A DNA stretch of 64,000 nucleotides, from assembly GCF_900113685.1 (NCBI RefSeq), contig NZ_FOQG01000013.1:1-64000 (forward strand), given 5' to 3'. Shown here piece after piece: positions 2,603 to 4,205 of the stretch. The translations under genes were made by a program, and so were the position numbers. Below the pieces are notes generated by a model that was not told the DNA's origin, did no database searches, and was given only the letters and a program-made list of their open reading frames with translations. This DNA comes from Nocardioides psychrotolerans. Its GTDB lineage: Bacteria > Actinomycetota > Actinomycetes > Propionibacteriales > Nocardioidaceae. Position 1 is the stretch's first letter, and every line of letters begins with the position of its first letter.

Positions 2603-3124
2603 TTAGCCGGAGAAAAGGTCCAACTGGGGTTCGTCGGCCTCGTCCGATTCCTCGCCTTCGGGCACCCACACTTCGATGTCTATGGGAAGAGCCGACAGGT
2701 GTCGCTCGATCAATGGCCAGACCTGCGACCAGGCCAGGCCACCGTTGCCGCAGCCGAGGGGTGGCAACGCGAGACTTTTGATGCCCCAGTCGCGATACTC
2801 CGCAGCAAGGACCTGCAGTCCGTTTTCCACCCACTCCAGGCGAGAAGGGTTACGCCAGTGGTCCTTCGTCGGGAAGTTCAGTACGAGTTCGAGGCTCGGC
2901 TTGTTCCGCTTCGGGTCCGCCGCGAAGACGTACGGCACGCCGGGGTGCACTTCATTGCGGCGGCAACGCTGTTCGTAATCCGCGAAGTTCGCCAGGTGGG
3001 CGTTCTTGAACTTAAGCGCTACACCCTTGCCCATGATGCCCACGCAGTTCACTGTGTTCGTGATCGTTTGCATGCGTGACTGCATGATCGTTTCACTACC
3101 GATTCGGCGTCTGCTGAGTGTCAC
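2603..3124 (-). CDS. darG: DarG-type macrodomain antitoxin (ADP-ribosyl-DNA hydrolase) with C-terminal QLDLF
   Basis: This is a single macrodomain of the DarG/TARG1 class, which binds ADP-ribose and removes it from DNA thymidines, reversing DarT. Visible signatures are NTVNCVGIMGKGVALKF (~23-39), NFPTKDHWRNPS with the Lys that corresponds to the DarG/TARG1 catalytic lysine, and PPLGCGNGGL in the phosphate-binding loop. It is short (about 173 residues) and lacks the extra C-terminal domain found in longer DarG proteins. It ends EPQLDLFSG: the pentapeptide QLDLF matches the bacterial sliding-clamp (DnaN) binding consensus. The GTG at 3124 is preferred because AGGGAG lies 8 nt upstream; the GTG at 3130 is too close to it. 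It lies 100 bp downstream of the DarT-like gene on the same strand. Confidence 0.88.
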   Translation of the reverse strand: MTLSRRRIGSETIMQSRMQTITNTVNCVGIMGKGVALKFKNAHLANFADYEQRCRRNEVHPGVPYVFAADPKRNKPSLELVLNFPTKDHWRNPSRLEWVENGLQVLAAEYRDWGIKSLALPPLGCGNGGLAWSQVWPLIERHLSALPIDIEVWVPEGEESDEADEPQLDLFSG

Positions 3125-3224
3125 TCGCACGTCTCCCTGATTGCCGCGCAGCAGCGGGTGGATACCTGGGTTAACCCTATCGACTCCGTCGCACCTGGGA
3201 GTTCGTTACAGGTGGTGGCCGTGG

Positions 3225-4205
3225 TTAGTCTTCGAAAAACAGTGTGCCGTCAACCTCTCCCGGCCACTGCGGTGCTGCTTGCCGCGCCTCGTGGAGGATG
3301 CGCCGTGACGGTGCGCGGACCCCCATCACGCACCGCGGTGGGATCGATCGGGGGACGAGCACTTCTGCCTGCATGATGCGCTTCGCCTCCTCGTGCACGT
3401 CCCCGTTGGGGGTGGTCCAGGACCGGGCGTAGATGCGATCAAGGTCGATGTGGGCCAGCCCTTCGAGCCCGGACCAACGCTGGGATCGGGATGAAGCGGC
3501 GTTCCCGTCCGAGACCAGCACACCTGGCAGGTCCAGCACTGCCGGGGAGACCCGCAGGACGACCAGTTCTCGATGTTCCCACTTGTGCAATCGGATCAGC
3601 ATCGCGTTGCGCGGATTGAAGTACAGACTCGCGAAGCGGTGCAGGTCCTCGCGGTGTTCCTGAACTCCGAGATCAGAGACGTCGTCGTGATCGATTTTCG
3701 CCGCCTCGTCATGGCAGAGAATGCCCCGCGAAACGATGCTCTTCAGATTCTTGATTGACGTAATGTTGTACAGATACCCGATGCGGGCCCTGACCTCGAC
3801 CGCACGCCTACGGTCTCGGTCCTCTTGACGGGCCTGTTCGGCATAACGTTCGCGCTCGGCCTCCTCATGCAGTTGTCGGAGTGCCGCTTCTTTTGCCCGT
3901 CGATCATTTTCCAGGGCCGCCGCCGCCGCTTGCCGAAGGCGCTTGGACTCCACTTCTGCGCGCTGCGCTGCCGCTTGGACGCGCTGCGCTGTCGCTGTGA
4001 CCGCGTTGAGCCACAGGTCTAGAAAGTCTGTCGAGCCCGTGCCGGGATGGTCGCGCCACAGCATCTCGGCTGTCTCTTCGACCAAGTCGTTTGCGTGCGG
4101 GCCCAACAGCGCGACGCGCCGGTCAATGTTGAAGGCCATCTTCAACTGGGCGTTGCTGGCGTCGGTTCCTGAGAGCGAGCACCAGAGGTTCCACTCTCGG
4201 TTCAA
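3225..4205 (-). CDS. darT: DarT-type ssDNA ADP-ribosyltransferase toxin with N-terminal coiled coil
   Basis: Residues ~141-300 form a DarT (DUF4433) domain: YLYNITSIKNLKSIVSRGIL at the NAD-binding start, LYFNPRNAMLIRLH (~194-207), the VVLRVSPAVL strand, and KRIMQAEVLVPRSIP with E281 at the catalytic glutamate position. DarT enzymes use NAD+ to ADP-ribosylate bases in single-stranded DNA, block replication and protect against phage. The N-terminal ~140 residues are unusual: a helical segment and then a charged, Ala/Glu/Arg-rich coiled coil (~71-140) not found in minimal DarT proteins. The start is a TTG with AGGGGG ~10 nt upstream; ATG at 4136 is the alternative. The neighbouring macrodomain gene makes the toxin-antitoxin assignment strong. 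Confidence 0.87.
   Translation of the reverse strand: MNREWNLWCSLSGTDASNAQLKMAFNIDRRVALLGPHANDLVEETAEMLWRDHPGTGSTDFLDLWLNAVTATAQRVQAAAQRAEVESKRLRQAAAAALENDRRAKEAALRQLHEEAERERYAEQARQEDRDRRRAVEVRARIGYLYNITSIKNLKSIVSRGILCHDEAAKIDHDDVSDLGVQEHREDLHRFASLYFNPRNAMLIRLHKWEHRELVVLRVSPAVLDLPGVLVSDGNAASSRSQRWSGLEGLAHIDLDRIYARSWTTPNGDVHEEAKRIMQAEVLVPRSIPPRCVMGVRAPSRRILHEARQAAPQWPGEVDGTLFFED

Follow-up and report, generated by a model that had tools for sequence, protein, structure and literature searches.

A Nocardioides DarG antitoxin lacking the C-terminal domain ends in a candidate sliding-clamp-binding motif

The DarG antitoxin encoded near the start of contig NZ_FOQG01000013.1 of Nocardioides psychrotolerans represents a variant of the known DarTG toxin-antitoxin system, in which the macrodomain is followed not by the usual C-terminal domain but by a short tail with a clamp-like ending, QLDLF. 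The best explanation of this architecture, which we hold to be probable though by no means certain, is that DarG would be tethered to the sliding clamp DnaN through the C-terminal QLDLF carried on a flexible acidic tether. Published work is cited below from excerpts of the respective papers.

Within the window (the whole stretch of 64,000 nucleotides that was analysed), darG occupies positions 2603..3130 of the minus strand and encodes a protein of 175 aa from a GTG start. The macrodomain region spans residues 1-157 (2660..3130, minus strand), of which residues 25-138 are matched by the Pfam macrodomain family (PF01661, 5.6e-14); the PADLOC DarG model scores 205.6 bits against the protein, and the closest solved chain is 5m31 (8.7e-37). 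The NFPTKDHW segment aligns with NFPTKKHW of Thermus aquaticus DarG, with NFPTK unchanged. Its first lysine, Lys89 (codon 2864..2866, minus strand), is taken as the equivalent of K80, because K80, H82, and W83 are the residues named for the Thermus protein (PMC5179494). The window DarG is thus a putative DNA ADP-ribose hydrolase. The first-pass annotation held that the additional C-terminal domain is missing, and this is confirmed: the NCBIfam DarG model covers the protein only at profile positions 8-155 of 338, with 204 bits against a cut-off of 250, a value cleared by the full-length DarGs L073 (272 bits) and L042 (304 bits). Across the initial 12 kb of the window, no significant hit to either of two DarG C-terminal domains was obtained, the positive controls being recovered at 9.8e-63 and 5.8e-108. 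The third-position GC of darG in its open frame is 0.74, below that of most other frames compared, as for a recently acquired gene.

The toxin gene lies directly upstream. On the minus strand, darT (4205-3225) precedes darG (3130-2603) by 94 bases; it encodes 326 aa from a TTG start (3225..4205), a choice supported by the homologue from Nocardioides lacusdianchii. The catalytic domain (residues 146-310; 3276..3770, minus strand) matches PF14487 at 7.4e-35, which establishes the presence of an adjacent darT, and the product is predicted to be an active DarT enzyme. The system therefore resembles those of T. aquaticus and enteropathogenic Escherichia coli (EPEC) in combining a PF14487 DarT with a DarG macrodomain carrying the K80-type lysine in NFPTK and in placing the toxin gene first and the antitoxin gene second, but differs from them both in the missing C-terminal domain and clamp-like ending of DarG and in an additional N-terminal stretch of DarT (roughly residues 1-140; 3786..4205, minus strand). 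This extension matches no Pfam family and, at E 0.01, has no relative among 72,556 plasmid records; its only other bearer found is the DarT of N. lacusdianchii. Both Nocardioides systems that include a DarT pair the toxin extended by ~140 aa with a DarG devoid of the C-terminal domain.

The tail of DarG was described in the first-pass annotation as an acidic linker followed by QLDLF, a match to the clamp consensus, at a flexible C-terminus, and all three elements hold, the last of them as a structural prediction. The window reads D-E-P-Q-L-D-L-F-S-G-stop from 2635 to 2603 of the minus strand, the C-terminal end of the protein being VPEGEESDEADEPQLDLFSG, with QLDLFSG as its closing residues, and the candidate clamp-binding tail peptide being EADEPQLDLFSG. 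QLDLF itself (2612-2626), part of the QLDLFS stretch that is invariant in three homologues (2609..2626, minus strand), is an exact fit to QL(S/D)LF, the consensus reported at the C-termini of bacterial clamp ligands (PMC9690074); the clamp motif is given as QLxLF in PMC4549789. The linker EGEESDEADEP (residues 158-168; 2627..2659, minus strand) ends within a stretch of low predicted order. In the AlphaFold2 model of the window DarG, the macrodomain is confident (mean pLDDT 85.2) and residues 165-174 fall below 50, whereas in the full-length DarG of S. calvus (mean pLDDT 91.5) the sole internal stretch below 50, residues 159-167, contains its QLDLW (160-164). These low values in tail and linker, which may also stem from poor alignment there, would agree better with a short, exposed motif than with a packed part of the structure.

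An ending of this kind is rarely expected by chance. With residue frequencies taken from the C-termini of 551 gene models (864 kb of the genome) and an assumed proteome of 4,300 proteins, QL[SD]LF is expected within the last 8 residues 0.010 times per 4,300 proteins, and QLxLF 0.088 times; the models required 120 aa and third-position GC >0.8, so that darG itself (0.74) is excluded and low-GC genes are missing from this sample. None of the 551 models has QLxLF within the last 10 residues, and QxxLF occurs there in one, an O6-methylguanine-DNA methyltransferase ending in QDALF. At the codon level, the Q[L/F]x[L/F]F pattern is present at 20 genome sites, of which just two lie no more than 10 residues from an ORF end, that in darG and one in an 11-aa open frame with the ending QLALF (L220), judged to be noise. 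The methyltransferase (L319, G000:C38:200001-220000), an enzyme that also reverses a DNA base lesion, is itself a candidate for clamp tethering. The same genome contains a DDE transposase fragment (PF13701; L205 1123-1809) with an internal QLSLF; clamp binding is common among transposases (PMC4549789).

To delineate the distribution of the short form, 215 genomes of the genus were searched with a two-row profile at E 1e-20. The seven matches comprise short DarGs in the window, in N. lacusdianchii (G495), and in genome G541, as well as four full-length DarGs of another lineage. The three tails, EGEESDE---ADEPQLDLFSG, DGEEVDEPKVAEEAQLDLFSE, and DEEDADDPPTSDELQLDLFSE, all end in QLDLFS[GE] (3/3), the final residue being either G or E, and are separated from the macrodomain by a linker that varies in sequence and length. 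The proposal that the terminal QLxLF should be more conserved than the linker in close homologues withstood this comparison: all six columns of QLDLFS are invariant vs 3 of 11 in the linker (Fisher p 0.009, for three sequences of one genus with columns counted by eye). Between the homologues, the motif codons differ by synonymous changes only, one or two per pair. The darG copy of G541 (L234 7596-8122) carries a frameshift within the macrodomain, and its 13.4-kb contig contains no DarT relative, for which reasons this gene looks like an orphan in decay; it adjoins a Schlafen/AlbA_2 gene and, by eye, an integrase-like ORF.

In the wider DarG family, the clamp-like ending is confined. Our set comprised 185 dereplicated rows, in 60 of which the macrodomain is followed by fewer than 35 residues, although some of these are not truly short (L019, L100, and L110 reach an edge, and in L044 another frame yields the full length); among the 60, QLxLF is found only in the three Nocardioides rows. 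Another short DarG, of gammaproteobacterial origin and accompanied by its own DarT (L065:2498-3052), has a basic tail ending in QTTLL. On the basis of linker and C-terminal domain, two lineages can be distinguished among the full-length DarGs, which we term A and B for convenience. The usual lineage-A linker has the form P[YF]GTPxxQLTxEFL or a close variant. In the related lineage-A DarGs of the class Actinomycetes, however, a clamp-like motif is present in the linkers of 6/6 proteins found, in the forms QLDLW, QLELW, QLNLW, QLALM (two), and QLSFL. The respective linkers are GGEQQLSFLGDDE (L003), DVEQLALMPAE (L042), DFEQLALMPAA (L049), GPEQLDLWQVP (L073), DRAQLELWDSP (L274), and AGGQLNLWDDE (L350); L349, identical to L073 over the macrodomain, was left out of the count. 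The linker expressions were written after L003, L042, L049, L073, and L274 had been viewed, which renders the shuffle counts partly circular, and L350, the only Actinomycetes linker obtained after the expressions were set, fits them. Two plasmid-encoded DarGs of Actinomycetes considered as exceptions to the 6/6 proved to belong to lineage B and have no such motif.

Among 51 lineage-A linkers from outside Actinomycetes (L070, L076, and L101, in which the macrodomain end was not recognised, being left out of this count), QLxL[FWLMY] occurs in one and QxxL[FW] in five, four of the latter forming a single gammaproteobacterial and viral clade with QSRLF, QHRLF, or QQRLF. The linker PSQxRLF of these gammaproteobacterial and viral-contig DarGs (L077, L080, L129, L134, and also L135) constitutes a second clamp-like kind. 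The clamp-like motif is absent from five lineage-A DarGs of other classes of the same phylum (L081, L101, L294-L296), and QxxL[FWLM] is found in none of the 22 lineage-B linker regions within Actinomycetes. As judged from these sequences, the clamp-like motif is not a general feature of DarG, most other DarGs being without it, and the QLxL-type motifs in the linkers of full-length Actinomycetes DarGs, to which a clamp-binding role would be assigned by resemblance, are a new observation of this work. In many linkers from other phyla, QL at the same place is also part of the non-clamp-like QLTxxFL, and because of this recurrence part of the likeness to QLDLF may be ancestral. 

Whether the motif arose once or twice was addressed with two trees, both built without L055, L096, and G541, and the second also without L065, L085, and the lineage-B rows. 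The six full-length QLxL sequences of Actinomycetes form one clade with bootstrap values of 99 and 100% in the two trees, the value of the first being unsettled. The short Nocardioides lineage falls outside this clade, on a long branch. Because a single group uniting the short and the Actinomycetes QLxL sequences is not rejected (AU p 0.21), we do not claim an independent origin of the motif.

The prospective partner is present in the host. One DnaN was found in the genome, and it is related to solved actinobacterial clamps. The host polymerases carry QDSLF (DnaE1), QDDLF (a Y-family enzyme), QLSLDL (DnaE2-like), and, by eye, QLVLGE (a second Y-family enzyme), where DnaE1 and DnaE2 are our own labels and each motif was chosen among several loose ones. 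DnaE1 has four loose matches (QEHLL, QADIL, QDSLF, and QLRLL), from which QDSLF was singled out by what we take to be the position of the motif in E. coli. QLDLF is in keeping with these polymerase motifs, which is weak evidence for a clamp-binding role. Mycobacterial ImuB binds the clamp via QLPLWG (PMC10421592), the form that most resembles the candidate clamp-binding QLxLW linkers.

How would a clamp tether serve this antitoxin? DarT attaches ADP-ribose to single-stranded DNA. The macrodomain of T. aquaticus DarG is by itself enough to rescue cells exposed to DarT, provided that K80 is retained (PMC5179494), and in EPEC DarG the macrodomain, by hydrolysis, and the C-terminal domain, by sequestration, are each sufficient (PMC7003065). 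As the DarT-sequestering domain is missing from the window DarG, the protein would have to protect the cell by erasing the ADP-ribose marks. The most likely role of the tail, as proposed in the first-pass annotation and supported here in part, would be to attach DarG to DnaN at the replication fork, which would put the eraser where single-stranded DNA appears, a placement from which a DarG relying on hydrolysis only would gain. More speculatively, one Actinomycetes DarG lineage and the gammaproteobacterial QxRLF clade might be clamp-tethered as a whole, with the Nocardioides tether having replaced sequestration to yield purely fork-coupled repair; we regard this broader scenario as possible but doubtful.

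The main rival, which we consider unlikely yet worth serious attention, casts the tail as an element binding DarT itself: the acidic linker would imitate single-stranded DNA while QLDLF anchors on the toxin, together making a minimal substitute for the C-terminal domain. That domain does sequester DarT (PMC7003065), and sequestration has been described as mimicry of negatively charged single-stranded DNA (PMC11481870, citing Deep et al. 2023); moreover, the ~140-aa extension of DarT in both systems that include the toxin could offer a new partner surface. Conservation, however, falls on the QLDLFS end and not on the acidic residues, QLxL[WML] is also found in full-length DarGs that still have the C-terminal domain, and the orphan of G541 keeps the tail with no DarT on its contig, although it is itself decaying.

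Far less probable, in our view, is a functionless tail, either retained from the linker of a full-length ancestor or matching the clamp motif by chance. The occurrence of QL at this place in many full-length DarGs (QLTxEFL) and the reliance of the conservation on three sequences speak for such an origin, but the amino acids of the motif are held through synonymous codon substitutions beside a linker that varies in both sequence and length, the chance expectation for such an ending is the 0.010 per 4,300 proteins calculated above, and no trace of the C-terminal domain was recovered from the 12 kb searched. Equally improbable is recognition of the tail as a short motif by a different partner, for instance a protease setting antitoxin turnover. 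Antitoxins are often unstable, and degradation signals are frequent in C-terminal tails; yet the exact sequence is that of the clamp consensus, and the last residue differs between homologues. Tethering to DnaN thus remains the reading we prefer.

If the motif does bind the clamp, it would physically connect the antitoxin with the replication fork, and the clamp ligands would come to include an antitoxin; in the excerpts cited here, the members of toxin-antitoxin pairs with a link to the clamp are the toxins SocB and RipA. The SocAB and RipAB systems (PMC9690074, PMC12795458) share with the present proposal an encounter between one member of the pair and the sliding clamp, but in those systems the clamp is acted on by the toxin, whereas in the present case it would carry the antitoxin. 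A QLxLF/W-type motif is likewise shared with ImuB (PMC10421592) and with transposases bearing a C-terminal QLxLF (PMC4549789), neither of which are antitoxins or DNA de-ADP-ribosylases. With respect to the enzyme, the nearest comparison is SCO6735 of Streptomyces coelicolor, a macrodomain hydrolase of the same TARG1/DarG-type subgroup able to remove ADP-ribose linked to thymidine on DNA (PMC9411070), an activity that by analogy is only expected of the window DarG; SCO6735 lacks the catalytic lysine and has an amino acid permease gene upstream (PMC9411070), whereas the window DarG has the lysine and follows darT. The titles and abstracts found on DarG with the sliding clamp or DnaN, and on antitoxins with a clamp-binding motif, contained no report of a clamp-bound DarG, most subscription papers lying outside this scope; PMC9967889 mentions 'sliding clamp' once.

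Mobile elements were surveyed for relatives of the short form. DarG matches are present in 76 of 72,556 plasmid records and 242 of 50,697 phage records, all at <60% identity, and no short DarG with this tail is among the 60 matches listed for each. Nor was one found in viral contigs by protein, alignment, and DNA pattern searches; the 38 viral-contig stretches retrieved by the DNA pattern were dismissed, their best macrodomain match having an E of 0.35. Directly downstream of darG, a phage-type integrase (PF00589) and an HTH_17 gene occupy positions 811-2332 of the window, which suggests a mobile element, although its ends were not found; the search for a tRNA-derived repeat that would mark an integrated element gave 12 bases at best. 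A transposase-like fragment is discernible by eye at the contig start (11-316), and a gene for a trypsin-like peptidase (PF13365; 4516-5169) lies upstream of darT on the opposite strand.
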